Assembly: GCA_007859835.1 (NCBI GenBank)
Contig: SJPJ01000001.1
Location: 3,398,794-3,462,793, forward strand
Source of the DNA: Novipirellula herctigrandis
GTDB lineage: Bacteria; Planctomycetota; Planctomycetia; Pirellulales; Pirellulaceae
Direction: 5' to 3'
Length of the DNA stretch: 64,000 nt
Positions 23,973 through 52,618 of the stretch are shown here, one piece after another; positions within the stretch are counted from its first letter, which is position 1, and each line of letters begins with the position of its first letter. The translations under genes and the position numbers were made by a program. The notes beneath the pieces are model-generated. The model saw only the letters and a list, made by a program, of their open reading frames with translations. It searched no databases and had not been told where the DNA came from.

Positions 23973-24244
23973 GTGGTGTTCGCTGCGCTCGACCACCGGC
24001 TAATGGCTGTGATCCCTTCGGGATAAAGATGTGGGGACTAAGTTCCTTACCCTTTTACGCGGACCTGATTGACCGTGCGAAGATATACGGAGTATGAGGG
24101 TTGCGGCGGATGTGCGGAAAACAATCACTTGCAGCCGCACGTCCAGTCGAAAAACGAAGTGGATCGTCGTGTTTAAGGCGACGCTCCCTGCGCGATGCAG
24201 CCGACGAATCATCGCGTTCACTTCGTTCGCTCCTGTGGTTCACG

Positions 24245-25453
24245 ATGCGGTCCTTTCTGACAGTAACAGTGTTGACGCTCTGCATCCTATCGCGGAGCGC
24301 TATGGCACAGTGCGACGACTCCGCACGCGATGAACACGGGCTGCTCCCTTTTCTGGGTCGAGTATCCAGTGAATGCCTTGGGGGAGATGGACCCGTCACG
24401 GTCGAGCCCGTGTACTACGGTGAAGTCTTCACAAACGCGCGAGGCGGAATTACGACAAACGGTGCAACGCAGTACGAAGGATTGCTCGATCTGGCAATGA
24501 CCGTCGAGTTGGACAAGACGCAGCTTCCGCTCCCGGGAAGATTCTTCCTGCTGGCCCAGAATACTCATGGCCGTGGGTTGACCGAGGATTTCATCGGTGA
24601 CACGCAAGTGCTCAGCAACATCGACTCGGGTGACAACATCATGCAAGTCAGCGAGTACTGGTGGGAGTTCGGGCTGCTCGGCGATGACGTAACGCTCCGC
24701 TTGGGCAAGCAGGACGTCAATTCGGAATTCCTACTCGTGGAGATGGCGGAAGACTTCATCCAGTCGTCCTTCGGGCTTTCGCCTTCGTCAGCGGGCCTGC
24801 CGACCTATCCCGACCCCAGCATGGCAGCCGTCTTGCTCAGCCAACTCACCGATCAAACGCGACTCAAACTCGGCATTTGGGACGGGTTGGCAAGCGGAGG
24901 CAGCTGGGGGTTTTCCGACAACGATGTCATCCTGCTGATCGGCGAGTTGGAACACAAGTATTCGCTCGATGGTGGACGCCTTCCGGGAATCTTTGAACTC
25001 GGACTCGCATACAACAGCGATGGAATTGTCGACGGCGAGCAGTTTCCATCGGAATGGGGTTACTACCTGCAGTGGCAGCAACTCGTCTTCCGCGAAAGAC
25101 CGTGTGACCCAGCAGACTCGCAGGGCCTTGGTATCTTCGCGTTGTATCTACCACGATTCGGAGGCGGGCCGGTCACCGCATCTCCGCTGGAAGTCATCGA
25201 AGAGAGCGCGGCTGCAGGCTTTGTGTACCGAGGCTTATTGCCTGGTCGCGACGAAGACGTGATCGGCGCGGGCATCGCCTGGACTCAATTGAACCTCGGC
25301 GGCACGAACCGGGAAACCGTCGTGGAAACATTCTACAAAGCGCAGGTCACCGACACCGTCAGTGTGCAGCCAGACATTCAGTACATTGCCAGCCCATCCG
25401 GAATCTACGATGACGCACTAACGGTCGGACTCCGATTCACGGTGACCCCGTAG
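24245..25453 (+). CDS. OprB-like carbohydrate porin
   Basis: 402 aa from the ATG at 24245, chosen because a signal peptide follows directly (MRSFLTVTVLTLCILSRSAMA, residues 1-21). The upstream extension is Arg/Ser-rich and looks non-coding. The mature protein has the OprB strand pattern: YEGLLDLAMTVELDK, GRFFLLAQNTHGRGL, YWWEFGLLGDDVTLRLGKQD, FIQSSFGLSP, RLKLGIWDGL, GLAYNSDG, and a C-terminal VQPDIQYIASPSGI...LRFTVTP. Its DVNSEF motif after LGKQD is common in the family. It would import sugars through the outer membrane. It stands alone between the intron-like relic and dead insertion sequences. Confidence 0.82.
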   Translation: MRSFLTVTVLTLCILSRSAMAQCDDSARDEHGLLPFLGRVSSECLGGDGPVTVEPVYYGEVFTNARGGITTNGATQYEGLLDLAMTVELDKTQLPLPGRFFLLAQNTHGRGLTEDFIGDTQVLSNIDSGDNIMQVSEYWWEFGLLGDDVTLRLGKQDVNSEFLLVEMAEDFIQSSFGLSPSSAGLPTYPDPSMAAVLLSQLTDQTRLKLGIWDGLASGGSWGFSDNDVILLIGELEHKYSLDGGRLPGIFELGLAYNSDGIVDGEQFPSEWGYYLQWQQLVFRERPCDPADSQGLGIFALYLPRFGGGPVTASPLEVIEESAAAGFVYRGLLPGRDEDVIGAGIAWTQLNLGGTNRETVVETFYKAQVTDTVSVQPDIQYIASPSGIYDDALTVGLRFTVTP

Positions 25454-25489
25454 CGCTGGGATCAGATCCGCTAGAAAGGAGAACTAGTG

Positions 25490-25985
25490 ATGTCAGATAC
25501 GACACGGAAGTTGAGCGTTGAATTGTCGAGCGCAGAACGGGAAGAGTTGGCCAGAATTGTTCGCCAACAATCCTTTGGTACTGCAAAACAACGGCGTGCG
25601 CGCATTTTGTTACTCGCCGACGCGAATCACCCAGACGGTCGCTGAACTGATGCCAACATTGCAGAACTGGAAGGGCTCTCGTCCAGACAAGTTGTTCGTA
25701 TTGGACAGCGATTCGCGAGTGAGCGTGATACCCATTCCATCGAGGATGCCTGTGGTCGCAAGCCACGTCCACGTGCCCGAGCGACGATGGCGTGATGCAG
25801 AGGCTAACTCGTCGTTTTCGCTTGCAGCGATCCGCCTGATGGTCGCAACCATTGGACGTTGCAATTGCTTTGCGACGAACTTTCGCGGCTGGAAGTCGTC
25901 GAATCGGCATGTCCCGAAACGATGTAAAAGTGCCTGAAAAAACATGTACTGCAGCCCTGTCGAACCGAGAGTGGGTGGCCGACCG
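25490..25985 (+). pseudogene. IS630-family transposase remnant
   Basis: From an ATG at 25490 with AAAGGAGA upstream, the frame reads like the IS630 N-terminal helix-turn-helix region (LSSAEREELARIVRQQSFGT, AKQRRARILLLADANHPDGR), then a TGA replaces an expected Arg codon (CGA). It continues TDANIAELEGLSSRQVVRI and later, in another frame, HWTLQLLCDELSRLEVVES before another stop. Several frameshifts and stops and a missing catalytic DDE region show that it is dead. The exact 3' limit is uncertain. Nothing is recognised in 25986-26165. Confidence 0.65.
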
Positions 25986-26165
25986 CAACACAAGACGCTG
26001 TGGTGCTCGATGGCGATTCACCACCGATGACGCGAGAATTAAACTGCAGGGACCCTATCCTCAACGCAACATTTAGAGATAGATCAACCAATCGTGCGGA
26101 CGTTAATTGCGCTAGAGTGCCTGCGTTGCTGATCACAGGCTGCCCTACGAGTATTGGACTTCAGT

Positions 26166-26437
26166 GGTACACACGAGAGTCATCACGAAAACTGTTGCTT
26201 CCGCTGTACTCTTCACGATCTGCGGAATTGGCCCGACCGGCCAGTTCGCAGGTTGAGAGTCTCCATCGGCCATTTCTGGCTGGTCAATAAACGCCGTGTT
26301 TGGGGCGTTTTTCAAGTTTCGGTGTTTTGTCCGAAACCTCTCTCTCGGACTAGGCCGTCCCGAGCCAGCATCCGTCTCAACGTTTTTTTCTTTGCGAACT
26401 ATCGCGCTCTCGGTTCACAGAGTGGCTGCTTGTTACC
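26166..26437 (+). repeat. Dispersed repeat R1, copy 2 (cut by element insertion)
   Basis: Closely similar to 8153-8442. Similarity stops at 26437, where an integrase-derived element begins; copy 1 continues with other sequence at the corresponding point. The shared terminator hairpin AAACGCC/GGCGTTTTT is at 26289-26312. Confidence 0.7.
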
Positions 26438-27453
26438 CGTGTGGTCAAAAAAGTCGAACGAGTATTTGGGTCTGTGAAATCGGAGGTTGGTTTGCCATAG
26501 AAGGTCGAATTCTTGATCGAGATCGAGCCCATATTCATCGGTGCCTTTAAAACCGGTTCAAAACGGCCGCGCCGCGCAACAGATATCAAACCGATTGTTT
26601 TGAAACCGGAGTGCTGCGAGTGAGTGAATGTCGATCGAATTATGCAGCGCGTCGATACGATCGAAGCAAGCCACCAAGGCGGTCGGTCGTTTCGATTTCA
26701 GCATCCATGTTTGGCGGTCGATCCATCGGCACGATCAGTACGATCAGCACGTTGCCCAATCCTTGGTAGTTTCTTTCAGTGTGATAGTGAACGAGGAAAC
26801 CCCGAACAGCTCTACGGGTTGCGTTCTCACCAAAGAGAATCAGTTTGTAAAGGCACTCGGATTTCAAGGATTCTAAAAATCGCTCTAAGTTTGCGTTCAA
26901 GTTCGCACTCTTGGCCGGCCATATCTCTTCTCTTTGCGATCGGAGTAGTCCCATTTTTTGGCAACCAATTGACGATGCCAACGGAGGATTGTACCCGGTG
27001 TGAACAGAGTCCCAAACTGCTCGAGTATTTTGCTTCCGAGAACCTTGCCTTTGACTGCCAAACGACGCCGCTGATCATCGGTCGGCAAGATTCGCTTCTT
27101 GCCGAACTGCTCTTTGAGAACGGCATTCTCGGTGCGAAGGTACTCAATGACTTCTTGTTGTTGTCGATTGATCCAACTAGCAAGAATGACCAGCATCAAC
27201 TGCCACGGTTGCAGAATGAATTTCATCGACGTCTCGGAGTTGGAAAATCCGAGACGATCATGAGTATGCGTTAGTGTAAACCCGCGGGAGCAGGCTTCAA
27301 TGCGATCAGATCTTGTAGTCGATCCGATGAGAACAGTTGCACAAAGATTACCGACGCCTATCTGAAAGTTGGATCGGCTGAGAAACATGGCTCACAAATG
27401 CTTGATTGTTTGATTTTTGCCGTGTCTAAGTGGTGGGCGGAGTTTTTTGACTG
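26438..27453. mobile_element. Non-autonomous integrase-derived element, copy 1
   Basis: About 1 kb, homologous to 35533-36545. The left end begins CGTGTGGTCAAAAAAGTC, and the right end, read inverted, contains AGTCAAAAAACTC, giving imperfect terminal repeats. The minus strand encodes the first ~110 residues of a planctomycete integrase/transposase (MKF at 27223: WINRQQQEVIEYLRTENAVL, KKRILPTDDQRRRLAVKGKV) and then, after a deletion junction near 26900, its last ~75 residues in another frame (NLNANLERFLESLKSECLYK, RLGGLLRSYRRAA). The central DDE catalytic core is missing, so it cannot move itself. It differs from copy 2 by a small tandem duplication (CGATCAGTA) near 26735. Confidence 0.75.
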
Positions 27454-27745
27454 GACGGTGTTAACTTCGAATCAACGTTGTTCGTGAGCGTTGGGTTAGA
27501 TTCAAGAGCAACTGAACCGGGCACAAATCTGTAAGTAGCTCATCACCAAACACTCACGTCGCTCCAGAAAAGAGAGACAATTTACCGAGAACGTCTTGTA
27601 CTGGAAGCCAAGGCACGCTTCGCCTCGAAAAAAAAACGCCTGGAGATAGTTGGAGCGTATAGTTCGCAAGGGGCGTCATTTGCAGTCAGTATTCACCGGT
27701 CTTCGCCAACTTGAAACCGCCTCAGTGGGCAGGGCAATCGCACGT
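27454..27745. other. Intergenic between dead elements
   Basis: No gene or clear repeat is recognised in this stretch. Confidence 0.35.
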
Positions 27746-28426
27746 TCAAACTCCCCTAAAACTGGCGTAAATGTTGTCGAGGACGCTGCCATCCCTTCCT
27801 GCTCGGAGTCGTTTGCCTCGAATCGAGTGTTTGACAGTAGTGTCGCGTTGCAAAACATTCAGAGCCATGCGTCGAAATGCGGCTGAAATTTCGAGCGAGT
27901 TACCGACGCGAGTTCGGCTTGCGTCCTCTGAAAATGTTACATCGAGCATATAATGCTGACTGTTCTCAATCTTCCAATGGTCACGTAGCAAGCGACTCAA
28001 ACGCTTTACTTTGGGAGGCAGACTGCTGAAGAAAAACGTGTTCTCGTCATGTTCGCTTACACCACCTTCACGATGACGGTAAACCATGCCGATCGACTTG
28101 AGCAGTTCCGCGGCGGCAGGAATTTCGTTGTTTTTCTTCTCAACCGATCTCTGCCGAAGCACCATCCGTGTATCGGTCGCGAAAGCAGTGATGATGTGGA
28201 GCAGATCTTGTCCGGCGGCTCGATCAAAGGAACGACGTAAGACTTTTTCATCGATTGCGATTCCTTTCTCGCGAAGCGAACCGGCGAACCGATCAACCCA
28301 AGCGTGCATTGCGGTAAAGAACTCTGCAGTATCGAGTTTCGAAAAGACACGTCTTAGCGTATCGTGGCTGGGGATGCCTTGCTCCGATTTGAGGTAACGG
28401 CTGAACCAATCAATTGCACACCGCAA
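27746..28426 (-). pseudogene. ISAs1-family (H-repeat) transposase, truncated and internally deleted
   Basis: 226 codons open on the minus strand. The first part (IPSHDTLRRVFSKLDTAEFF, GIAIDEKVLRRSFDRAAGQ, DLLHIITAFATDTRMVLRQR) and last part (LSRLLRDHWKIENSQHYMLD, VTFSEDASRTRVGN, AAFRRMALNVLQRDTT) are typical of ISAs1 transposases, which are about 370 aa. The block that normally follows the ELLxxL segment, with the catalytic Asp and the KGNQ motif, is missing between about residues 110 and 112. The N-terminal ~50 residues before WFSRYLKSEQGIPSHD are also absent. It is non-functional, yet the reading frame stays open across the deletion. Confidence 0.8.
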
Positions 28427-28767
28427 CCCTTGTACCGAAAACTAAATCAACGTGCGATTGCTCTGTAAAAGGAGCCTGTTACACTGGCTTCGTTTTTCCT
28501 TATGACCATTCCGTCTTTGATATCTCAACGGGCGCGGCCATACCGAATCTAAAGTTCACAAAACTGTATGTTAAGTAGAGGCTCTCAGCACGTCATAGCA
28601 TGAAAACGCCATCCGCCGGAGAGCAACCGCGGGGTAAAAAACTTTGCGACTCGTTTTCCTTCCGGTTCGTGGAGTCGTTGAGCGATCGGCGGATTGAAGA
28701 AAAGCGAATTTTCACGTCGTGACTAGGCCAGTGATATAGTGAGTAAAGACCGATCCAGGAGACGCTG
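28427..28767. other. Intergenic, nothing recognised
   Basis: 341 bp upstream of the SGNH esterase gene. No repeat, RNA or gene is supported. The promoter of the plus-strand esterase/sulfatase pair should lie here. Confidence 0.35.
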
Positions 28768-28863
28768 ATGCGAATTTCTCTCGTACCGCTCAGCAGCGAA
28801 CGATTGTTCTTTGACAATTTGGTTTTCACGAGCTCGGCGGCACTCGTCTACGCAGCAGGTTGA
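28768..28863 (+). CDS. Possible 31-aa leader peptide
   Basis: An ATG preceded by AGGAG at 7 nt opens a 31-codon frame (MRISLVPLSSERLFFDNLVF...) that stops 5 bp before the ATG of the SGNH hydrolase. The spacing suggests translational coupling or a leader peptide. No similarity is recognised and chance is possible. Confidence 0.3.
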   Translation: MRISLVPLSSERLFFDNLVFTSSAALVYAAG

Positions 28864-28868
28864 TACGA

Positions 28869-29636
28869 ATGATCACAAAGAACAATTCCGTCATGCACGC
28901 AGGGTTGTTTGCGACGTGTTGGTTGACCATTGGCTTCAATGCTGCCGCCCAAGTTGGCCCGAAATTTGGTTCGGGCCAAGTGAGGTCGGTCCAAACGGTT
29001 AACCGGCAGAGCTTTGACGAACTGAAACGCGAACTGCAACTGAAATGGCCAAACAACCGTTTAGTACGTTTCGTGTTCCATGGCCACTCCGTCCCCGCCG
29101 GTTACTTTCGGGCGGGCCGTGTCCGTCGATTTGATTCTTATCCGATCTTGTTCCATCAAGAGCTTTGCGAGCGATATCCCACTGCGGTCATCGACGTTTG
29201 CACCACAGCGATAGGGGGCGAAAATGCCAAGAGTGGCTCCCAACGTTTCGCTGACGATGTCTTGTCATTGAAACCGGACGTCGTCTTCATTGACTATTGC
29301 CTGAATGATCGATCGCTTGGCGTTGACGTTGCCGAAGAAAGTTGGCGAAAGATGATTGAGCAATCGCTGGACAAAGACATTCATGTCGTGCTGCTCACCC
29401 CCACACCTGATTCGCACGAAGATATTCTTGACCCTGAGACAAAGCTAGCGAAACACTCGGAATCCATTCGGCAATTGGGCCGGGAGTTTGGTCTGCCGGT
29501 GGTAGACTCTTATGCTCTCTTTCGTGAATTGGTGTCCGAAGGAACAAACGTGAGCAAGTTCCTTTCGCAACCGAATCATCCCAATCGAAAGGGACATGAG
29601 CTTGTTGCAGATCAGATTCTGCGATTGTTCCGTTAA
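28869..29636 (+). CDS. Secreted SGNH/GDSL-type hydrolase (esterase)
   Basis: 255 aa from the ATG at 28869. Signal peptide 1-27 (ending FNAAAQ). Catalytic blocks are FHGHSVPAGYF with the presumed nucleophile Ser74 (GHS instead of GDS), a Gly/Asn region at TTAIGGENAKSG (block II-like), DYCLND (146-147, block III) and NHPNRKGHE (about 236-244, His of block V). SGNH enzymes of this kind deacylate carbohydrates. It sits 44 bp upstream of the multi-domain sulfatase-GH2 gene on the same strand, so the two are probably co-transcribed and may act on one acylated, sulfated glycan. Confidence 0.85.
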   Translation: MITKNNSVMHAGLFATCWLTIGFNAAAQVGPKFGSGQVRSVQTVNRQSFDELKRELQLKWPNNRLVRFVFHGHSVPAGYFRAGRVRRFDSYPILFHQELCERYPTAVIDVCTTAIGGENAKSGSQRFADDVLSLKPDVVFIDYCLNDRSLGVDVAEESWRKMIEQSLDKDIHVVLLTPTPDSHEDILDPETKLAKHSESIRQLGREFGLPVVDSYALFRELVSEGTNVSKFLSQPNHPNRKGHELVADQILRLFR

Positions 29637-29680
29637 CGCCAAACACCCCAACTCCTTTGAAGATTCGACTAGGTGACACA

Positions 29681-32600
29681 ATGGCAAGAGATGTAGGCAT
29701 CGTTGCGATCGGTTTGGTGATGGCGATGTCGCTTTCGAGCATCGCTGTGGAGCGTGCCGATCTTCCCGGCACGGGGCGAGGTGCTTCGGACAAGAGCGAT
29801 TCCTCAGCACAGAACCAGCCCAACATCATCTTCTTCATCACAGATGATTATGGGTGGCAGGATACGTCTGAGCCGATGTGGGAGGAACAGACCGACCTCA
29901 ACAAGACTTTCCGTACTCCAAATATGGAAAGGCTGGCCCGCCGGGGCGTGAAGCTCACTAACGCCTACACGTCCTGTAGTGTGTGCTCCGCTTCACGGAT
30001 CTCGATCCTTACGGGACAGAATCCCGTCCGGCACGGAACGACCTTTATCACCGGTACTCCCGGCAAAAACACGAAGACCATGCGCTCGGCCATGCAGGAT
30101 CTTGACGGTATTCAGAAAGGGGACGTGCTGCTGCCGGAGTTGCTCAGGAAGGCGAGCTACCGTACGGTCTGCATCGGCAAGTCGCACTTTGGCAGGGAAG
30201 ACAGCTTCGGTGCCGACCCGCTCAACCTAGGCTTCGACCGAAAGCATTACGCCAATCACCACGGCTCGCCGATCGGCAAGTCCTGTGGAGGTCGTGACGC
30301 TTATCACGTCGAGCGTACCGGCCAACAGGTACATCTTACGGAAGCGTTAACGTTGGAGGCCAAAAACGAGATCAGCGCAGCGGTCAACGACGGGAAGCCC
30401 TTCTTTCTCTACCTGTCCCACTATGCAATTCACACCCCGATACTTGAGGATCCACGTTTCAAAAAAAACTACCCGAATTTGGAGGGAACTCAACGCGCCT
30501 ACGCGACCCTAATCGAAGGGGTAGACAAGAGCCTGGGCGATATAGTGGATCATGTCGAAACACTCGGCATTGCCAAGAACACGTTGATCATCTGGACAGC
30601 CGACAACGGTGGTCTTGTCAACAACGTACCGCTTAGGGGCTTGAAGAACGATGCGTACGAAGGCGGTCACCGCGTTCCAAACATCGTCGCCTGGGGGGCA
30701 CAGGATGTGGCGTCGCAATGGCAACGACATTTGCCCCTCACACCGGGTCGCGTCGATCACCGCCCGTACATCCACACCGACTGGATGCCAACCCTGCTGC
30801 GGCTAACCGGTGCCGCGCACCCCAAGCCGGAACTCCTGGACGGCTACGACATCACGGATCTTCTCAGTGGCCGAGAAGAGGTCGCTCGCCCCGAGCTCTT
30901 TTTCTGGCATGAGCCTAACTTCTGGGCTCATAGCGGTCCGGAGTCATCGATTCGCGAGGGGAGTTGGAAACTGATCTACCTTTACGACAAGTCGGCGTGG
31001 GAACTGTATGACCTCACCCAGGACATCGGCGAACGGACCAATCAGGCAAACCGACATCCTGAAGTCGTGAGCCGGCTGGCTCGCAAGTTAATCGACCACC
31101 TGGATCAGAACGGCGCGAACTATCCAATTGACGTCGCCACGGGGAAGGAACTGCCGCCTCGACTGACCTCTTACGTTCCGCCCGCGATACGACCACCGGG
31201 CACACAGCCCGGTGGCCCGGTCGACCTGTCGGGTCAGTGGCGGTTCGTTCTCGATCCTGAAGACCTCGGGCTCCGCAGTGGTTCCCACACCTTGCACTTC
31301 CCCGACACGATTCATCTCCCGGGAACCACCGCAGCACAAGGCAAGGGACGTGCTCTCAAGATGGAACTGCGCATGGACAAGGAGACGATGAACCGTCTCC
31401 GTGAACGTCACCCCTACATCGGCCCGGCCTGGTATCAACGCGAGATCACCATTCCTGCCGATTGGTCAGGTCAGGACATCCTCCTCACTCTCGAACGCGT
31501 CCTCTGGGAGTCACGTGTTTGGATCGACAAGAAGCCGGTCGGTAATCCACAACGTTCACTTTCGGTTCCCCATCGTTACGACCTCACTTCGCACGTCAAG
31601 CCAGGCGAAACACACACACTGACGATGCGCATCGACAACCGCCAGATTGTCGATATCGGCAATATCGGTCACGCATACACGGCCGGAACCCAGACGATTT
31701 GGAATGGCGTCCTTGGTGAGCTGAAGCTCGAGGCGCTGCCGAAGTCTCGGATCGAACACGTGGAGCTTTCGACAAAGGCCGATGGTCGACTCACAGTCAA
31801 CGCCCACGGCCGCTTCCGTTCCGCTCAGAAGCTGATTGCGTCCGTCGATGGCGTGGCGATCGCAACGGCCCCCGCATCCGGAGGTGACGTGTCTCTTTCC
31901 GGGCAATCTCACGACGCCAAACCGTGGTCCGAACTCTCGCCTGCTCTTCACGAACTCACCGTTTCCCTCATCGCCCCCGACGGTACGATCCTCCACACTC
32001 TCACCCGTCGCTTCGGTTTCCGGGAGTTCACCGCCGAGGGACGCGATTTGCGGATCAACGGCACCCGCACCTTCCTACGCGGGAATCTCGAATGCGCCAT
32101 TTTCCCACAGACCGGTCATCCCGATGTTGAGGGCCCGCAGTGGGAGAAGATCATGCGGACGAGCCGCGACTATGGTCTCAACCACCTTCGCTTTCACTCG
32201 TGGTGCCCACCCGAGGCCGCCTTCGAGTCCGCAGATCGTCACGGAATCTACCTCCAGGTCGAACTGCCGAATTGGACGTTCTCGATGGGCGGCAAACCAG
32301 CAGTCGACGCCTTCTTCCTGGCCGAAGGCGAACGTATCTTCCGCGAATACGGGCATCATCCCTCCTTCGTCATGTTCTCCCTCGGCAACGAGCTGAAAGG
32401 CGATCTTGAGGCAATGGATCGTCTAGTCGAACGTTTCCGCACGATGGCACCGGGCATCCTTTTCACCTCCACTACGTTCGCCTTCTCCCCACGCGGCAGC
32501 CTACCGGGCCCCGCCGACGATTTCTTCATCTCCCAGCGCACGCAGTCTGGCTGGGTCCGGGGCCAGGGTTTCCTCAACGCGACCTTCCCCTCAACCGACA

Positions 32601-35572
32601 GCGACTACGCCGAGGGCCTTGCTTGTCTTGACATCCCCCTCGTCACCCATGAGGTCGGCCAGTATGTGGTCTACCCGAATCTTGCCGAGTTGCCGAAATA
32701 CGAATCGACCCCGCTGCGTTCCCCGTCGCTCGAAGTGATCCAGCACGACCTTCGTGAGAAGGGACTACTCGCCGACGCCAGCCGTTTTACCCGTGACTCC
32801 GGCAAGCTCGCCGCCTTGCTCTACAAGGAAGACATCGAGCGCGCGCTGCGAACCAAGGGGCTCGCCGGCATCCAACTCCTCCAGCTCCAGGATTTTCCCG
32901 GACAAAGCACGGCCACCGTGGGCCTGCTGGATGCATTCTGGGACAGCAAGGGCCTGATCACGCCAAAAGCGTTCCGCGAATTCTGCTCCCCTGTCGTCCC
33001 CCTCGTGCGGATGAACAAATTCGTTTGGGAGAACTCCGAGACCTTCGTGGCCAGGTTCGAGCTTGCCAACTTCTCCGAAGCCGCACGGGAAGTGGGATTC
33101 AATGCCTGCTTGGCTACTCCCAGCGGCAAGGCCTTTGCCACAGTACAGTTTGACCCGCGCAAGTACGGAGTCGGTAACGGCCACCCGATCGGTCACCTAG
33201 AAGCGTCCCTCGCCAACCTCACCGAACCCACCCGCCTTGACCTCATTATTGAGGCCTTAGACGGCACTGCGCGAAACACCTGGCCGGTTTGGGTCTATCC
33301 GAAAAAGGCCTCCCTGCCGGAGGTCAGCACCTACCAAACCGTGACCGATGCCTGCCTTGCCGATCTGGCACAGGGCAAGACCGTGCTCCTTTTGCCCCAG
33401 GCAAACACCATCCGCAATCCCGTCCCCGCCCGCTTCATTCCCGTCTTCTGGTCGCCGCTCCACTTCCCCAACCAACCTGGAACACTTGGTGCAACCATCG
33501 ATGCAAAGCACCCACTGTGGAAGAATTTTCCGACCGACACGTATACCAACTGGCAGTGGTGGGAACTGACCGCCGAATCGACCGCCATTGATCTGACCGG
33601 CTTCGATCCCAAAATCGAAAAGCCGTTTCGCTTCATTGACAAGTACAATCGCAACGCAGTGCCGACTGCCATTTTCGAAGCAAGAGTCGGAACCGGCAAA
33701 CTTCTCGTTTGTACCCTCGATGTCACCTCGGATTCTGGGACCCGCATCGTCGCCCGCCAACTGCATCGCGCACTGACCCACTATGCAGGCAGTACCGAAT
33801 TCGAGCCCGCTGCGTCACTCACACCTGAAAGGCTACGCACGCTCTTCCGCGATAGCGGCGGCATCACCGCGGATTCCTCGAGCAGTCATCCGGACTTCCC
33901 TGCCGACCTTGCGATCGACGGCGACCCGGCAACCATCTGGCACTCCGAATGGCGCGACGCGAACAGGGCATTTCCGATCACCTTCACCCTTGACCTGCAG
34001 CAGCCCACCGAGCTTGCCGGCCTGCGCCTGCGCAACCGCGCCGGCAACCAAAACGGGCGTATCCGCGACTTCCGAATCGACGTGTCTCTCGACAACCAGC
34101 GCTGGCGTTCGTGCGGCGATTCGTCGCTCCCCAATGGTCCGGATGTTGAGAGCGTCAAGTTTGAGGAGCCGGTCGAGGCCCGATACGTGCGCATCAGCGC
34201 CACATCCAGTCATGCCGGCCCTGTGTTCGCCAGCCTCGCCGAAGTCGAACCGATCCCTGCTGATTCCGGCGATGTACGCGACCTGGGGATTGTCCCGGGC
34301 TTCAACGACAAACCCAACATCGTGTGGATCATGGCCGAAGACATAAGCACGGAACTCTCGTGCTATGGTCACCCGGCGGTGAAGACACCCAATCTTGACG
34401 CCCTGGCCCGACAAGGGGCGCGGTATACGCAAGCCTTCTGCACGGCTCCATCCTGTACGCCATCTCGCAATGCGATGATGACCGGCGTTTACCAGACACG
34501 GACCGACACGCAAGATCAGAGACGACGTGGCGTCATACTGCCGGAAGGGATGAAGCCGATTACACACCTGCTGCGCGAGGCAGGCTATTTCACCGCCTTG
34601 GGGTGTGGGTACTCCACAAAGACAGACCTCAATTTCGAGGCCGAGCCCCTTTTCGATGGTAGAGACTGGTCACAACGAAAGAAGGGCCAGCCCTTCTTCG
34701 CTCAGATTACCCTGAACATATCGCACCGACAGCCGAAGGAAGGCTGGGCTCCCGTACGAGGGGCGTCCGAGCATCCGGTCAAGCTGGATGAAGTCGAGCT
34801 CCCACCCTATTTCCCCGATCACCCGGTCTGCAGGCAAGACTGGGCGGAGTACCTCGATTCCATCGAGAAGGTCGACAGCCAAGTGGCTGCCATCCTTGAG
34901 CGTCTGAGGACCGAGGGCATTGAGGATAACACGATTGTGATCTTCATCGGCGACAACGGTCGCTGCCATTTGCGCGGGAAATGCTGGCTCTACGACGGAG
35001 GCATCCATGTGCCTCTGATCATACGCTGGCCTGGCGCCATTAAGTCTGGAATGGTCAACGATGACATGGTCAGCATGATCGACATTTCGGCAACGATCCT
35101 GGATATTGCAGGAGCAGAGTTGCCAACCTATCTCGACGGTCACTCAATTCTCGGGGAGAGAGCGAAGAAAAGAGATCACATCTTTGCCGCGCGGGACCTT
35201 GTAGACGAAGTCATGGATCACATCCGTTGTGTACGAACCAAGCGGTTCAAATACATACGAAATTACACGCCAGAAAACGGCTATCGCGAGTGTAGTTACG
35301 TTCAGAACTACCGACCTATGCTGGCTGTCATCAGAGACCTCCACGCACGAGACGAACTCACGGAGGCACAGCAGTTGATTCTCGCTGAAACGAAACCCGA
35401 AGAAGAACTCTACGACGTGCAGGACGATCCGCACGAGCTCAGCAACCTGGCTCAATCCCCGAAGCATCAGAAAACGCTTGCTGAGCTGCGAGTTCGATTG
35501 GATGAATGGATAGCCGATACGAAAGACAAGGGCGTGTGGTCAAAAAAGTCGAACGAGTATTTAGGTCGGTGA
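29681..35572 (+). CDS. Multi-domain sulfatase - GH2 glycosidase - F5/8C - sulfatase
   Basis: One open frame of 1963 aa from the ATG at 29681 (AGGTGA five nt upstream; signal peptide 1-25). Domains: S1 sulfatase 1 (about 45-490; ITDDYG, Cys102 in CSASR, TADNGG); GH2 glycosidase (about 513-1120; YQREITIP and ESRVWIDKKPVG in the sugar-binding domain, presumed acid/base Glu904 in LGNE, nucleophile Glu991 in THEVGQ); a GH2-associated region (about 1120-1385); F5/8C/CBM32-like lectin (about 1397-1523; AIDGDPATIWHS, ARYVRISA); sulfatase 2 (about 1544-1940; AEDIS, Cys1592 in CTPSR, GDNGRCH). Each catalytic set looks intact. The last ~12 residues (VWSKKSNEYLGR) are encoded by the inserted element at 35533, so the native C-terminus is lost. 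It probably desulfates and cleaves a sulfated polysaccharide. Confidence 0.88.
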   Translation: MARDVGIVAIGLVMAMSLSSIAVERADLPGTGRGASDKSDSSAQNQPNIIFFITDDYGWQDTSEPMWEEQTDLNKTFRTPNMERLARRGVKLTNAYTSCSVCSASRISILTGQNPVRHGTTFITGTPGKNTKTMRSAMQDLDGIQKGDVLLPELLRKASYRTVCIGKSHFGREDSFGADPLNLGFDRKHYANHHGSPIGKSCGGRDAYHVERTGQQVHLTEALTLEAKNEISAAVNDGKPFFLYLSHYAIHTPILEDPRFKKNYPNLEGTQRAYATLIEGVDKSLGDIVDHVETLGIAKNTLIIWTADNGGLVNNVPLRGLKNDAYEGGHRVPNIVAWGAQDVASQWQRHLPLTPGRVDHRPYIHTDWMPTLLRLTGAAHPKPELLDGYDITDLLSGREEVARPELFFWHEPNFWAHSGPESSIREGSWKLIYLYDKSAWELYDLTQDIGERTNQANRHPEVVSRLARKLIDHLDQNGANYPIDVATGKELPPRLTSYVPPAIRPPGTQPGGPVDLSGQWRFVLDPEDLGLRSGSHTLHFPDTIHLPGTTAAQGKGRALKMELRMDKETMNRLRERHPYIGPAWYQREITIPADWSGQDILLTLERVLWESRVWIDKKPVGNPQRSLSVPHRYDLTSHVKPGETHTLTMRIDNRQIVDIGNIGHAYTAGTQTIWNGVLGELKLEALPKSRIEHVELSTKADGRLTVNAHGRFRSAQKLIASVDGVAIATAPASGGDVSLSGQSHDAKPWSELSPALHELTVSLIAPDGTILHTLTRRFGFREFTAEGRDLRINGTRTFLRGNLECAIFPQTGHPDVEGPQWEKIMRTSRDYGLNHLRFHSWCPPEAAFESADRHGIYLQVELPNWTFSMGGKPAVDAFFLAEGERIFREYGHHPSFVMFSLGNELKGDLEAMDRLVERFRTMAPGILFTSTTFAFSPRGSLPGPADDFFISQRTQSGWVRGQGFLNATFPSTDSDYAEGLACLDIPLVTHEVGQYVVYPNLAELPKYESTPLRSPSLEVIQHDLREKGLLADASRFTRDSGKLAALLYKEDIERALRTKGLAGIQLLQLQDFPGQSTATVGLLDAFWDSKGLITPKAFREFCSPVVPLVRMNKFVWENSETFVARFELANFSEAAREVGFNACLATPSGKAFATVQFDPRKYGVGNGHPIGHLEASLANLTEPTRLDLIIEALDGTARNTWPVWVYPKKASLPEVSTYQTVTDACLADLAQGKTVLLLPQANTIRNPVPARFIPVFWSPLHFPNQPGTLGATIDAKHPLWKNFPTDTYTNWQWWELTAESTAIDLTGFDPKIEKPFRFIDKYNRNAVPTAIFEARVGTGKLLVCTLDVTSDSGTRIVARQLHRALTHYAGSTEFEPAASLTPERLRTLFRDSGGITADSSSSHPDFPADLAIDGDPATIWHSEWRDANRAFPITFTLDLQQPTELAGLRLRNRAGNQNGRIRDFRIDVSLDNQRWRSCGDSSLPNGPDVESVKFEEPVEARYVRISATSSHAGPVFASLAEVEPIPADSGDVRDLGIVPGFNDKPNIVWIMAEDISTELSCYGHPAVKTPNLDALARQGARYTQAFCTAPSCTPSRNAMMTGVYQTRTDTQDQRRRGVILPEGMKPITHLLREAGYFTALGCGYSTKTDLNFEAEPLFDGRDWSQRKKGQPFFAQITLNISHRQPKEGWAPVRGASEHPVKLDEVELPPYFPDHPVCRQDWAEYLDSIEKVDSQVAAILERLRTEGIEDNTIVIFIGDNGRCHLRGKCWLYDGGIHVPLIIRWPGAIKSGMVNDDMVSMIDISATILDIAGAELPTYLDGHSILGERAKKRDHIFAARDLVDEVMDHIRCVRTKRFKYIRNYTPENGYRECSYVQNYRPMLAVIRDLHARDELTEAQQLILAETKPEEELYDVQDDPHELSNLAQSPKHQKTLAELRVRLDEWIADTKDKGVWSKKSNEYLGR

Positions 35573-36545
35573 AATCGGAGGTTGGTTTGCCATAGAAGGT
35601 CGAATTCTTGATCGAGATCGAGCCCATATTCATCGGTGCCTTTAAAAACCGGTTCAAAACGGCCGCACCGCGCAACAGATTTCAAACCGATTGTCTTGAA
35701 ACCGGAGTGCTGCGAGTGAGTGAATGCCGATCGAATTATGCAGCGCGTCGATACGATCGAAGCAAGCCACCAAGACGCTCGATTGGTTCGATCTTGGCAC
35801 CCATGTCAGGCGGACGATCTATCGGCACGATCAGCACGTTGCCCAATCCTTGGTAGTTTCTTTCAGTGTGATAGTGAACGAGGAAACCCCGAACAGCTCT
35901 ACGGGTTGCGTTCTCACCAAAGAGAATCAGTTTGTAAAGGCACTCGGATTTCAAAGATTCAAAAAACCGCTCTAAGTTTGCGTTCAAGTTCGCACTCTTG
36001 GCCGGCCATCTCTCTTCTCTTTGCGATCGGAGCAGTTCCATTTTTTGGCAACCAATTGACGATGCCAACGGAGGATTGTACCCGGTGTGAACAGAGTCCC
36101 AAACTGCTCGAGTATTTTGCTTCCGAGAACCTTGCCTTTGACTGCCAAACGACGCCGCTGATCATCGGTCGGCAAGATTCGCTTCTTGCCGAACTGCTCT
36201 TTGAGAACGGCATTCTCGATGCGAAGGTACGCGATGACTTCTTGTTGTTGTCGATTGATCCAACTAGCAAGAATGATCAGCATCAACTGTCGCGGTTGTG
36301 GAATGAACTTCATCCGCGTCTCGGTAGTCTGGCAAATCCGAGACGATCATTGGTGTGAGAAGAAATGTAAACCAGCATTGACAAGCTTCGGAGCGATCAG
36401 AGTTTGTAGCTGGTCCAGCGAGAACGGTTGCGGGAAGATTGTGGACGCGATTAAGCATGTCAATTCAGCTGAGTTACATTGCTCACAGAACATAAATTCT
36501 TGTTTTTCTTGTGTCGAATGGTCGGCTGAGTTTATTTCCCCCACG
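35533..36545. mobile_element. Non-autonomous integrase-derived element, copy 2
   Basis: Homologous to 26438-27453 with the same left end and the same internal deletion. The minus strand encodes the N-terminal part of the integrase (MKF at 36313) and, in another frame, its C-terminal part (35736-35990). It was inserted into the 3' end of the multi-domain sulfatase gene on the left, and its right edge abuts a truncated minus-strand gene. The right end is more diverged than in copy 1. Confidence 0.75.
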
Positions 36546-36554
36546 CGTCAGGCT

Positions 36555-36950
36555 TCATCTTTTGATGGGCCCAATAGCAGGAAGGACAAAGCCGATGCCA
36601 TTCTCCAACATCGTCGTCTTCAAGCCATCAAACTCTTTGTAAACCGTCGGCCCGAGGTTACCGTAAGAAACGATAAAACGGCAGGCTTGTTTCGCATTTG
36701 GAACCACATAAGTAATCGGTATCCGTACCTTTCTTCCGTTTTCAAAATCGCAGAGAGTAATCTCTACTATTTTTTGCTGAGTTGGCGGGGTGGTCGCCAC
36801 CGGATGCCAATCTCGCAAGACTTCCAGTTCTAGCAAAGAGACATCCTTCATCTCGTCCATGTTGTAGATGGATGCTGTTTGCCCGTAGGCAAAACTGGAT
36901 GCAATGCCGAGACTCAGGAATATAACTTTGATGAATCGTTGATACTGCAA
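36555..36950 (-). pseudogene. N-terminal part of a secreted hydrolase-like protein, truncated by element
   Basis: From a TTG at 36950 with GAGGA upstream, a signal peptide (FIKVIFLSLGIASSFAYG) is followed by WHPVATTPPTQQKIVEITLC and IPITYVVPNAKQACRFIVSYG, then the frame stops after GFVLPAIGPIKR beside the inserted element. This resembles the start of a longer secreted planctomycete protein of the alpha/beta-hydrolase or PhoPQ-type group (recognised only tentatively). At about 131 aa it is surely incomplete. Its start lies 37 bp after the tandem-esterase gene, so it was the last gene of the minus-strand array. Confidence 0.5.
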
Positions 36951-36987
36951 TTGCTTAGTCCTCAGGAAACGTACGGAAAGAGTCTCT

Positions 36988-38673
36988 CTATTCTCCCCTT
37001 GAAAATCCAAGCATCCAGTCGACCAGTTCCACTGAACTGAAGACCGCCGCATTTCCTGCAGCATGATCCGCTCCAGGAAATTCCGTGTACTTCACATGTT
37101 TGTTCCCCGCAGCTCGCAGGCGTTCCACCATCCGTTTGATTCCGGCTACCCTGTCTTTCTTGTCGTCTCCACCAACCATGCCCCAAATCGGCAAATCAAC
37201 AAGACTCGCGACATCGCCGCTATCGCCAATCGGAATACCGCTGGGCGACGCTGCCGCAAAACGATCGGCCGACTCATTTATCCAGGCCCAAGTTCCATAG
37301 CCACCCATGCTGTGCCCCATCACATAGATACGATTCGTGTCAACCTCTGGGTGGTTCTCCAAAATGTAATCGAGCATCGTATTCAACGATTCCACACGCC
37401 AGGTATCTGCTGTGTTCGGCTCCAGCAAAATCAAATCTCTCCCAGCAAGTTCCGCCAAAGCGAGTGCCTTCACCTCCGCTGATCTCGCAAGCTGCTCTTG
37501 CAAACTCATGTTCCTTCCGCCCGCGCCATGCAACGAAATAAGCAACGGCAATTTTCCCTTGGGCCTGTTCGCCGGGTACGCCATAAAGGCGATCTTCTTG
37601 AGCTTGCCGAACGGTTGATGCAATGGTTCAGGCCACTCAACCAACTCAACATCAACTTGCTTGAATCGATCGTTGATCTCCTGCAGCGTCTTATTGATGT
37701 CAGTACTCACCAACTTGCCCGACCGCTTTTGCTTGAATAACCAATCCCAGACATGATCGGTCTTGTCCGGTCGATTCGAAGCGTACTCAGTCAAATAGCC
37801 TTTGTCGGGATCGTCGCCGGTGTAGTTGAAGGCGAGACTGTTGGATCCGTGCCCGACACCCGTGACGGTGGTGAACTTGGCGTTGGCGCCCAATTTCTTG
37901 AGCCGCTCGAACGGATGGCGTGAGCCACCGTAGTCGACGACTTTGTCGTCGTTGCCATGGAAGATCCAGAGCGGCACGTCTTTGATACGTTTGGCGTCGA
38001 GCCAGGGAAAAAAACCGCCGGCCGAGGGGATGGCAGCGGCGAAGCGGTCCGGGTGCTGATAGACGGCGGCGAAGGTTCCAAAGCCGCCCATGGAATGGCC
38101 GAGGCAATAGACGCGGTCGGCGTCAATCTTGTATTTCACGCTGAGTTCGGTGTCGATGTACTCGAAAACCTTGCCGAGCACGCCGTCTTTGATGCGCGGG
38201 TCATCGGGGTTTTTGGCGACGTCGGCGGCAAGTTCAAGCGCACGCTGGCCGAACTTGCGCATGCCCTCGGGAATCTCTTCCAGAGTGACCGTGCCGTGCT
38301 CGGGCAGGATGCTGTGCTCGGCAGCGGGATCAAACCAGGATGTGGGCGACTGCGGAGCAAGCACAAAGCAGGGATGCTTGCGTCGGAGTTCTTCATCAGC
38401 CAGCCACTCGTTCCAGTTGCGCAGACTTTTGATGTTCTGCAAACCTTTCCCACCTGCGCCGTGCAGGCTCAGGATCAGTGGGTAGGTCCTGTCCGGGTCG
38501 AAGTCGATGGGTTTCAGCAGGCGGTACTTGACGCCTTTGAACTCACCGGGCTTGTAAAGGGCAAGGGTCTCGGGAGAGACCGCAGGCTTGGGGCCGCGCT
38601 GGTTTTGCGCGAAGGTGACGGAGAAAGTCGTGGTCGAGAGGACCAGAGCAGCGACAAGTAAGTGAATTCGCAT
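36988..38673 (-). CDS. Secreted tandem alpha/beta-hydrolase (two esterase domains)
   Basis: 561 aa with signal peptide 1-22 and two consecutive alpha/beta-hydrolase domains. Domain 1 (about 45-315) has an oxyanion-type LILSLHGAGG, nucleophile Ser194 in GHSMGGFG, Asp near 242 (FHGNDDKVVD) and His275 (GVGHG). Domain 2 (about 340-561) repeats these as LLISLHGAGG, Ser455 in GHSMGGYG, GGDDKKD and PGADHAAG. Both look catalytically complete. Each resembles CE1/phospholipase-carboxylesterase-type enzymes that remove acyl groups from polysaccharides. The first half is more GC-rich in third positions than the second, so the halves may have different histories rather than being a recent duplication. It follows two sulfatase genes in the array. 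Confidence 0.85.
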   Translation of the reverse strand: MRIHLLVAALVLSTTTFSVTFAQNQRGPKPAVSPETLALYKPGEFKGVKYRLLKPIDFDPDRTYPLILSLHGAGGKGLQNIKSLRNWNEWLADEELRRKHPCFVLAPQSPTSWFDPAAEHSILPEHGTVTLEEIPEGMRKFGQRALELAADVAKNPDDPRIKDGVLGKVFEYIDTELSVKYKIDADRVYCLGHSMGGFGTFAAVYQHPDRFAAAIPSAGGFFPWLDAKRIKDVPLWIFHGNDDKVVDYGGSRHPFERLKKLGANAKFTTVTGVGHGSNSLAFNYTGDDPDKGYLTEYASNRPDKTDHVWDWLFKQKRSGKLVSTDINKTLQEINDRFKQVDVELVEWPEPLHQPFGKLKKIAFMAYPANRPKGKLPLLISLHGAGGRNMSLQEQLARSAEVKALALAELAGRDLILLEPNTADTWRVESLNTMLDYILENHPEVDTNRIYVMGHSMGGYGTWAWINESADRFAAASPSGIPIGDSGDVASLVDLPIWGMVGGDDKKDRVAGIKRMVERLRAAGNKHVKYTEFPGADHAAGNAAVFSSVELVDWMLGFSRGE

Positions 38674-38810
38674 GAAGTTGTTCTCTGTATGAAGTTAAGC
38701 ATCCCACATCCCCATAGCTTCTTGTTTCTTGCGTACCATGGGGTTGCTCCTTCCGATTCAAGTAGAATCCAATGCAACCAGTTACACAAATCTTCTTGCA
38801 GGCCCTGGGA

Positions 38811-40571
38811 CTATTTATCGGAGTCTTTCTGATTGTTTGATTTGGCTTTTTTGCGAGCCTTTTTACGCGCTGCGCGTTCCGCTTTCTTTTTTGCTTTGTC
38901 GTCGGGAGCTGGTTCATCCGTCACTCCCAGCTCTTGCTTCAACGCTTGTGGCACCGTTACCGTTTTGCCTTTGATTTCGAGTTGTTTGACGATTTCGATT
39001 TGTTTGTCGATCTGGCCGGGTTCAGCCGCGTTCCCTCCGGGGATGAACTCTCCAAAAGGACGACCAATGACTTCGAGGTCCTGCTGCATGAGATTGCGCA
39101 TCTCTTTCATGCGAGTGGCCTGAGCGTTTTTATAAGCCACGTTCTTCATTTCTTTCGGATCCCGCTGCAGGTGGTAGAGTTGATCTTCGTCAAAGAAGCC
39201 GGGGCGATCTGCCCCTCTGACTCCGATGCCTAGACGTCCAATGTAGGACATGGCTTTGGGTAAGTTGTTCGGCGTGGCTTTCTTAATGGCAGCGATCTGT
39301 TCTTTGGTGTGGCGAACGGCAATGTAGGACCAATCTTTCGTGACTGTTGCCCTCGCGGCTCCCATTTCGAGATAAAGATGATCCCGCCAATCTTCGGCTT
39401 GTCCGTCCTTGAAAAGAGGGGTGAGACTCTGTCCATCGATCCGGTAAGAGTTCGGTTTCTCTGCTTCACCCAAGTCGAAGAAAGTCGGTACGAGGTCGAT
39501 ATTCTGCACGAGTTCTTCACACACTTGCCCTGCGGCGATTCCGTTTGGCCAACGCATGATCATGGGCACCTGGCAACCACCGTGTGAAAAGACGGATCCT
39601 TTGCCATCGCGACCATGATCCGGCGCAAAAATCACCAGCGTGTTGTCATCGATTCCGAGTTCCTTGAGCTTTCGGAAAATCGCTCCGAGCGAATCGTCGA
39701 TCCACGCTTCACCAGCCACATGGCTGTCGGGATCGAAACCTTTTTCAGTGATTGTTTCGAGAAGCTCTGCGCGAGGTGTCATGACCTCTGGAAGGCTTCG
39801 GGCTTCTCCCTCTCCGGTGATGAGCGGGTGATCCATGGATTTTCGCCAGGACTTGTCCGGCCCGTGCAGCAGGGTGCTGCAAAGATGAAGATAGAAAGGG
39901 CCGTCCTTGTTTTCTTCAATGAATTCCAGAGCGGCCACCGTCGTCCATTCAGGGTTGTGCGAGGAATAGGGCGAGTGGATGTTTTCCGGGTAGACGTTCT
40001 TTGCCCAGGAAAAGCCCAGCGTTTGGAGGTAACGACGCATCCAGAGTTCGTTGTGTTTGAACTGAGCCGAGGTTTCGGGCCCAGGACTCGCGTCTTTGGG
40101 AATGTTGATCCATTTGTCTTTCCCTTTGTAAAACTCTGGAAAATCCAAATCTGAAGTGAGGTGAAATTTCCCAACGAATCCGGTGGTGTAGCCGGCTTCA
40201 CGGAGAACATTTCCAACGTTCATATTGTCGCGTTCCAGTGCGACATTGAAATTGGGAAGCCCCTGATTCTCTTTGCCGCCGACCGCTTCGGCGTAACGAT
40301 TGCTATGCGAGTTACCCGCAAACCGACCGGTCAGGAAGGTGTATCGAGAAGGAGTACAAACCGAGCTGCTGACGTAGGCGCGAGTGAACTTCATCCCTTC
40401 CTTTGCCATGCGGTCGAGATTGGGAGTGTAGGTATCGCCCCCAAATGCGGCGATGCTCGAAGGGTTCTGATCGTCGATCAGAAACATGATGATGTTAGGA
40501 CGCTCTCCGCGAGCGACTGAAGCAAACATTGCCGACAAACAGAAGATCGAAAATGTAGTAAAGGTTTTCAT
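38811..40571 (-). CDS. Sulfatase (S1 family) with Lys/Arg-rich C-terminal tail
   Basis: 586 aa. Signal peptide 1-22, metal-binding LIDDQNPSS (31-39), formylglycine site Cys72 in CTPSR, GKFHLTSD, and the catalytic-domain motif APDHGRDG. It belongs to the choline-/iduronate-sulfatase-like branch of S1. The final ~45 residues form a highly charged Ala/Lys/Arg/Glu helix (KAKKKAERAARKKARKKAKS), similar in kind to the tail of the upstream sulfatase at 40706-42139. The tail could anchor the enzyme to an acidic polymer or to the cell surface; this is inference. A palindromic repeat (40613-40681) separates it from the preceding gene. Confidence 0.92.
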   Translation of the reverse strand: MKTFTTFSIFCLSAMFASVARGERPNIIMFLIDDQNPSSIAAFGGDTYTPNLDRMAKEGMKFTRAYVSSSVCTPSRYTFLTGRFAGNSHSNRYAEAVGGKENQGLPNFNVALERDNMNVGNVLREAGYTTGFVGKFHLTSDLDFPEFYKGKDKWINIPKDASPGPETSAQFKHNELWMRRYLQTLGFSWAKNVYPENIHSPYSSHNPEWTTVAALEFIEENKDGPFYLHLCSTLLHGPDKSWRKSMDHPLITGEGEARSLPEVMTPRAELLETITEKGFDPDSHVAGEAWIDDSLGAIFRKLKELGIDDNTLVIFAPDHGRDGKGSVFSHGGCQVPMIMRWPNGIAAGQVCEELVQNIDLVPTFFDLGEAEKPNSYRIDGQSLTPLFKDGQAEDWRDHLYLEMGAARATVTKDWSYIAVRHTKEQIAAIKKATPNNLPKAMSYIGRLGIGVRGADRPGFFDEDQLYHLQRDPKEMKNVAYKNAQATRMKEMRNLMQQDLEVIGRPFGEFIPGGNAAEPGQIDKQIEIVKQLEIKGKTVTVPQALKQELGVTDEPAPDDKAKKKAERAARKKARKKAKSNNQKDSDK

Positions 40572-52545: not shown

Positions 52546-52618
52546 TCTGGATCGTTGGAGAGGATTGTGTTGAAGCTTTGCGCTCATTGTAGATGCCCCG
52601 CAACGTCGCGTTGTCCAG

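Follow-up and report, generated by a model that had tools for sequence, protein, structure and literature searches.

One reading frame joining two sulfatases to GH2 and F5/8 type C modules in the planctomycete Novipirellula herctigrandis

Does a single long gene of Novipirellula herctigrandis (Planctomycetota, Pirellulaceae) encode one genuine protein with two sulfatases and a glycosidase, and what could such a protein do? The gene, at 29681..35572 (+), lies in a stretch of 64,000 nucleotides of contig SJPJ01000001.1 (assembly GCA_007859835.1, positions 3,398,794 to 3,462,793), hereafter the window, whose own numbering is used throughout. Its predicted product of 1963 amino acids (aa) consists of a leader, a first sulfatase (sulfatase 1), a glycoside hydrolase (GH) family 2 module, an F5/8 type C (F5/8C) domain and a second sulfatase (sulfatase 2). 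Sulfated glycans resist breakdown because a glycosidase can act only once specific enzymes have removed the sulfates. A natural chain with two sulfatases and a glycosidase suggests activities that belong together, and so points to the structure of the substrate. The reading favoured here, with a probability of about 0.6, is a secreted single-chain three-enzyme fusion that trims the non-reducing end of a galactose-rich sulfated glycan step by step; its activities, substrate, step order and the benefit of fusion are all inferred.

The frame runs uninterrupted over 1963 codons plus a stop, the chance of an equally long open random frame of the same base composition being about 1e-28, and the remaining five frames over the gene hold 24-80 stops each. 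A putative signal peptide occupies 29681..29752 (about residues 1-24); the top windows of an 18-residue hydropathy scan all start at residues 1-9, which fits one exported chain, and the product appears to be secreted. Pfam reported Sulfatase over three stretches (best 47-378), SGSH_C over three (best 1767-1866), Glyco_hydro_2_N at 516-651, Glyco_hydro_2 at 721-781 and F5_F8_type_C at 1398-1522, with PF00884 matched by both sulfatase domains. An earlier sequence-only reading had described a single 1963-codon frame in which a GH2 domain and a lectin-like module stand between sulfatases of two different subtypes, and had proposed domain searches as a check. The frame and the flanking arrangement are borne out, with both the GH2 module and the second sulfatase found, and its residue numbers are right (CSASR at C102, CTPSR at C1592, GNEL at E904, THEVGQ at E991); the lectin-like module is present, its identity being that of an F5/8C domain (PF00754, E 3.4e-23; 33872..34246, residues 1398-1522).

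The fusion looks real from joint alignments, in which both junctions fall where stand-alone relatives naturally end. At the first joint, the 483-aa stand-alone sulfatase of another Pirellulaceae genome (G171) ends ...GEELPPRWQ, and the fusion protein reads ...GKELPPRLTSYVPPAIRPPGTQPGGPVDLSGQWRF: the same sulfatase end, a Pro-rich linker (31160..31219, about residues 494-513) and then GH2 without the hydrophobic leader of its relatives. The linker starts at the G171 sulfatase end and occupies the place of that leader. At the second joint, GH2-F5/8C proteins of Verrucomicrobiota (L098, L099, L100, L135) end ...LGIIPGFND, and the fusion protein, reading ...LGIVPGFNDKPNIVWIMAED, passes directly from the equivalent end into KPNIVWIMAED of sulfatase 2, where KPNIVWI is the start of the domain by alignment. 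Relatives of sulfatase 2 (L190, L191, L053) carry leaders, recognised by eye, before the equivalent point. The N-terminal leaders of both downstream modules' relatives are thus missing from the fusion protein. A stop lost by error would have left leaders and intergenic sequence; since both are absent, an artefact by lost stop is rejected.

The frame might still be an assembly or base-calling artefact merging neighbouring genes, as could be argued from the 16 close GH2 orthologs described below, none of which is fused to a sulfatase (7 from Pirellulaceae, 9 from Verrucomicrobiota). Such an artefact is, however, very improbable in view of joints that lie at natural protein ends without leaders or intergenic sequence, of a GC content and a GC content at third codon positions (0.69, 0.71, 0.75 and 0.65 across the four modules) that show no sharp break along the gene, and of a contig 8.6 Mb long (8.58 Mb, in a genome of 9.5 Mb and 23 contigs). 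Internal starts yielding separate proteins were also considered and are unlikely: no in-frame ATG, GTG or TTG occurs at residues 470-537, and close to the second joint GTG codons (1503, 1515) are the sole candidates before sulfatase 2, neither with a leader behind it, so that proteins started there would be leaderless.

The tail after F5/8C (34247..34309, residues 1523-1543, delimited by the joint alignment and a structure model) ends ...DVRDLGIVPGFND. The predicted local distance difference test score (pLDDT) of the model is under 50 at residues 1529-1544, which would suit a flexible tether holding sulfatase 2. As a separate observation, a conserved tail, D[VA]R-LGI-PGFND, ends the four verrucomicrobial GH2-F5/8C proteins and corresponds to residues 1531-1543 here; it is the fusion point for sulfatase 2 in this protein and, in a related form, for an SGNH domain in two other genomes (G149, G159).

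Sulfatase 2 (34310..35539, residues 1544-1953; PF16347 and PF00884; Cys1592 codon of CTPSR at 34454-34456) has its nearest structures in the Protein Data Bank (PDB) in 9bb9 (S1_8A, 352 bits), 9bbd (S1_8B, 251) and 9bba (S1_8C, 169), the next different protein being 7stt at 146 bits. The catalytic Cys, the EDIS start, the His of NISHR and the residues of GDNGR...K align with S1_8A, and by sequence the nearest characterised relatives are S1_8 enzymes. S1_8A, S1_8B and S1_8C are described as galactose-2-sulfate 2-O-sulfohydrolases, S1_8A being read as monosaccharide-specific and S1_8C being required before a GH2 beta-galactosidase acts (PMC12549532). Xylose-2-sulfate and N-sulfoglucosamine are substrates of further S1_8 members (PMC12549532), so that galactose is, by analogy, the likely but not the certain substrate sugar of sulfatase 2.

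The GH2 module (31220..33859, residues 514-1393) matches PF02837 and PF00703 in its N-terminal domains; Pfam reported no TIM barrel, and the NCBIfam model NF049890, the BT4151 exo-beta-1,4-galactosidase equivalog, matches residues 577-1393, with PDB entry 8u01 aligning over the barrel. Both candidate catalytic residues proposed in the sequence-only reading, E904 (codon 32390-32392) and E991 (32651-32653), stand in columns invariant in 17/17 aligned GH2 rows, the window's included. The nearest solved structure is 8u01 (557 bits), also first in the fold search. It has been placed in GH2_20, whose deep active site and groove extension may explain action on decorated substrates (PMC12243196). GH2-F5/8C is probably an exo-beta-galactosidase-type protein.

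Sulfatase 1 (29819..31159, residues 47-493; PF00884; Cys102 codon of CSASR at 29984-29986) is S1_16-like, with 7oz9, 6uss and 7oza as nearest structures by sequence and fold. The sequence search gave 7oz9 at 306.7 bits, 7oza at 271.6 and 9fo1 at 208.6, and the fold search placed 7oz9 on top at 36% identity, using an AlphaFold model of modest quality (six alignment rows, mean pLDDT 67.9). S1_16 enzymes are therefore the nearest characterised relatives at the sequence level. Those characterised act on 4-sulfated galactose (4S-Gal) or N-acetylgalactosamine (4S-GalNAc) (PMC10154612, PMC11760155). The galactose reading fits these three modules together, namely S1_8 action on galactose-2-sulfate, S1_16 action on 4S-Gal and the GH2 match to an exo-beta-1,4-galactosidase model.

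In the favoured reading, three proteins would have been fused into one: a sulfatase of S1_16 type, a GH2-F5/8C protein of exo-beta-galactosidase type and a sulfatase of S1_8 type. Sulfatase 1 would take off one sulfate at the non-reducing end. Sulfatase 2 would act on a 2-O-sulfate, which it could remove in the manner of S1_8C, while the sugar still ends the chain, or in the manner of S1_8A, once the sugar has been set free. GH2 would release the end sugar, F5/8C would anchor the chain to the glycan, and an SGNH enzyme of the same gene pair would probably strip acyl groups. If so, the fusion offers a test of whether tethering speeds a desulfate-then-cleave sequence.

That SGNH/GDSL esterase is encoded at 28860..29636 (+) (PF13472, E 3.3e-18), with a TTG start at 28860 according to the open reading frame caller and an in-frame ATG at 28869. 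It lies 44 bases upstream of the fusion gene, and the two probably form one operon. The sequence-only reading had pointed to this neighbour as a possible source of deacylation, and it is indeed a recurrent partner, fused in G149, G159 and G115 and nearby in G049. G149 and G159, which hold two of the 16 close GH2 orthologs, each carry a GH2-F5/8C-SGNH gene followed by a 752-aa gene with a GH5-type N-terminal and a sulfatase 2 C-terminal part (Pfam was run on the G149 copy only). In G115, SGNH stands behind sulfatase 2 in one fusion whose frame is cut off at the end of the sequence stretch. G049 has sulfatase 2, GH2-F5/8C and SGNH as separate genes, the SGNH gene 523 bases downstream of GH2-F5/8C, with GH2 probably split over two contigs. 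SGNH homologs occur also in several GH2 loci of Verrucomicrobiota and Bacteroidota. That these genes recur joined or adjacent supports a pathway shared by GH2, sulfatase 2 and SGNH, a conclusion that does not extend to sulfatase 1.

Several observations weigh against the three-enzyme reading. The first concerns how rare the fusion is. A GH2 query against 241 Pirellulaceae genomes gave, besides the window, 7 orthologs at 45-53% identity; a whole-protein query against 8 Verrucomicrobiota genomes, reached via named loci, gave 8 at 49-71%, and 387 Verrucomicrobiota genomes added one at 68%. None of these 16 close orthologs (45% identity or more) has a sulfatase in its GH2 frame. Only 2-3 candidates were scored per genome, many assemblies are fragmented, and the phylum sets, which include 294 genomes of the own phylum, are samples that overlap by a few genomes. 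In those 294 genomes, the other GH2 frames with an E value no higher than 1e-100 measure 743-1297 aa. The longest of these (G866), together with the longer frames from elsewhere (G507, G347) and L193-L195, all with a more distant GH2, hold no detectable sulfatase. The complete fusion is known from one genome among those searched, so conservation cannot vouch for it; with no close GH2 ortholog fused to a sulfatase, the idea that an ancestor passed on the complete fusion is unsupported. A second point is the GH2 score against NF049890, 687.7 bits for a cut-off of 1500, by which the module is not counted as a member of the equivalog.

The gene surroundings in other genomes also count against the favoured reading. 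A link of sulfatase 1 to GH2 was seen in none of the three other genomes with a close sulfatase 1: in G171 the two lie on different contigs, and in G564 and G459, for each of which two candidates were scored, no GH2 attained E 1e-150. In a genome of the same genus (G146), a relative of sulfatase 2 and a GH95 gene belong to one row of genes, separated by a single unassigned gene, and no GH2 was detected in the stretch examined, which speaks against a fixed tie of sulfatase 2 to GH2. Both facts would suit an alternative in which the fusion is real but its three sites process different residues or glycans, so that only joint secretion and equal dose are gained. The long sulfatase frames elsewhere in this genome add to it: their partners are varied, and 8 of 12 carry a second enzymatic domain, suggesting fusion as a habit. 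We nonetheless consider this alternative rather unlikely, as GH2-F5/8C, sulfatase 2 and SGNH recur adjacent or fused in several genomes and, for each of the three catalytic modules, the closest characterised enzymes handle galactose.

The remaining difficulties for the three-enzyme reading lie in the active site of sulfatase 1. The usual sulfatase maturation motif is CxPxR, and sulfatase 1 has CSASR, with Ala instead of the motif Pro; of the two complete sulfatase active sites claimed from the sequence alone, CTPSR is present as described, and "complete" is too strong for CSASR. The substrate-stacking Trp is missing as well. Found 21 residues after the catalytic residue in 7oz9, 7oza, 6uss and 9s8f, which read TNW, it is absent from sulfatase 1, which reads TTFI and has Ile at this position in an ungapped alignment or, in one alignment, Phe with a one-residue gap, as do 4/4 members of its clade; the AlphaFold model cannot decide between Trp and Phe equivalence. 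Trp is needed in two characterised S1_16 enzymes (PMC10154612, PMC11760155), among them AMOR_S1_16A, whose W79 at subsite 0 is needed for activity on 4S-Gal/GalNAc (PMC11760155). Since Trp at subsite 0 occurs in only 37% of S1_16 sequences (review PMC10154612), its absence concerns specificity more than S1_16 membership. CSASR and the lack of the subsite Trp make any assignment of regiospecificity to sulfatase 1 tentative. The sequence-only reading had suggested that two sulfates are removed and one glycosidic bond is cut in a coupled way on the same chain, which stays a proposal here.

Sulfatase 1 could accordingly have been retuned to a new specificity, or be inactive and serve as a binding module only, leaving a two-enzyme protein. 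In support of this, CxASR and TTFI are common to 4/4 clade members (window, G171, G564, G459), whereas 13/13 planctomycete relatives checked (L070-L082) have CSP[ST]R with an equally distant Trp. However, the clade is conserved at 65-72% across two phyla, and in alignment with S1_16 enzymes the window sequence keeps DD, DN, K and H; this does not resemble decay, and we judge this alternative quite improbable. The S1_16-like clade spanning two phyla, with CxASR and no subsite Trp (L189, L247 and L248 with residues 102-124 of the fusion protein), is a possible new specificity group.

The modules of the fusion differ in their affinities, which makes the gene a mosaic. A GH2 tree of 80 rows, built by a quick method with Shimodaira-Hasegawa-like approximate likelihood ratio test (SH-aLRT) support only and including Cohnella rows (L167, Bacillota), places the window's GH2 inside Verrucomicrobiota; the successive groupings around it, of 5, 6 and 9 rows, have SH-aLRT values of 100, 99 and 98. 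It stands beside L098 (74% identity), the last fork having a support of only 80, and the seven Pirellulaceae orthologs form a separate clade (98). For sulfatase 1, the clade of four (support 100/100) joins the window with G564 (72%) and G459 (65%) from Verrucomicrobiota and G171 (70%) from Pirellulaceae, matches beyond it being at 46% or less. The other members of the sulfatase 2 clade are all Pirellulaceae (62-69%, support 96/97); its best Verrucomicrobiota match was at 46%, among the 8 genomes reached via named loci, though the strict threshold of the 387-genome search tested sulfatase 2 poorly. All matches of residues 1-273 in a search of plasmids stayed under 60% identity. These trees are explained most simply if the GH2-F5/8C gene was received from a verrucomicrobium and then joined to sulfatase genes. 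A bolder version of the three-enzyme reading is speculative and, taken as a whole, unlikely: the protein would be a tethered exo-processing machine passing a doubly sulfated non-reducing sugar between three sites faster than separate enzymes could, with a verrucomicrobial GH2-F5/8C fused between sulfatases of other histories, sulfatase 1 being S1_16-derived with a new specificity and sulfatase 2 an S1_8 2-O-sulfatase.

How far is such a protein new? The general fusion type is already known, and no other of the genomes searched was found to have this combination of modules. A planctomycete two-sulfatase gene of mixed ancestry, one domain closest to Verrucomicrobia, has been described (Kim et al., 2016; PMC4807772); here GH2 and F5/8C stand between the sulfatases. 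The same work estimated 34 and 21 multi-domain sulfatases, often with GH domains, in two Porphyra-associated strains of Planctomycetes (Kim et al., 2016; PMC4807772). Sulfatase and GH also share a chain in fusion genes of Kiritimatiellales, Polaribacter and Rhodopirellula, although the partners described there are GH10, GH32 and GH29, one S1_16 gene is annotated as amylopullulanase, and GH2 between sulfatases is not among them (PMC6388578). A PDB chain named rhamnosidase/sulfatase GH78 (6hr5) is among the matches of both sulfatases. The GH78-S1_25 enzyme of the Formosa ulvan pathway is called P36. In that enzyme, which acts on fragments of ulvan, as proposed here, a sulfatase prepares the non-reducing end and a glycosidase removes the sugar within one chain; it differs in its GH78 and S1_25 families, its single sulfatase and its rhamnose substrate (PMC8360166).

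The lambda-carrageenan cascade of Pseudoalteromonas distincta U2A likewise uses S1_8 sulfatases and a GH2 beta-galactosidase in sequence, but as separate proteins and with S1_15 in place of S1_16 (PMC12549532). Its GH2 entry, 9bey, is far from the window GH2 (E 8.5e-6), which is close to 8u01. With the galactosidases of the GH2_20/BT4151 type (8U01; NF049890), the window GH2 aligns over most of its length, including both catalytic Glu; it differs in falling under the NF049890 cut-off, and BT4151 works on pectic galactan side chains (PMC8002723). The order S1_16-like, GH2, F5/8C, S1_8 was not met in the portions of the literature searched, preprints and most subscription journals lying outside its scope, which agrees with the earlier statement that no characterised enzyme with this order is known. 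The word "undescribed", used there of the enzyme system, goes too far, because fusions of sulfatase with GH and a planctomycete gene for two sulfatases are already published (PMC4807772, PMC6388578, PMC8360166).

Around the gene pair, a promoter scan of 28400-37000 found 8 candidates for 3.7 expected, a weak signal, one of them (28711-28740) preceding the SGNH gene, and no RNA family reached its gathering threshold at 24000-40000. A transposase remnant (DDE_Tnp_1, 27746-28426, -) lies close to the SGNH and fusion genes on their upstream side; its closeness proves nothing.

The three-enzyme fusion is one of a series in this genome, and the further sulfatase fusions are a source of more substrate hints. 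Among 325 candidates, 150 sulfatase places were scored, the window fusion gene not being among those listed, and 150/150 exceeded the Pfam cut-off; the FGE-sulfatase family, which includes proteins other than the formylglycine-generating enzyme (FGE), had 12 matches, a point in favour of the three-enzyme reading. By eye, 19 of the 150 were counted in frames 750 aa or longer, and 12 long frames picked for length (11 of the 19 and one other) were scanned. A further Pfam domain was found in 10/12, and in the eight frames already mentioned it was enzymatic. L178 (1377-6155, -; about 7946876-7951654 of contig C1) encodes 1592 aa with three sulfatases (about 19-481, 537-967 and 1140-1564), and L182 and L184 have two per chain. 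L179 (3540-8651, +; C1) joins a sulfatase, GH2 and GH43 in 1703 aa, and L183 (999-4394, -; C1) an S1_8-like sulfatase and GH97 N-terminal, catalytic and C-terminal domains in 1131 aa. Sulfatase is combined with GH43 in L185, with SASA in L180 and with a beta-lactamase fold in L187. Within the window itself, a frame at 44496-47183 (-) of 895 aa joins a sulfatase to a GDSL esterase domain, and one at 49858-52587 (-) of 909 aa joins a SASA esterase to a beta-lactamase-fold domain.

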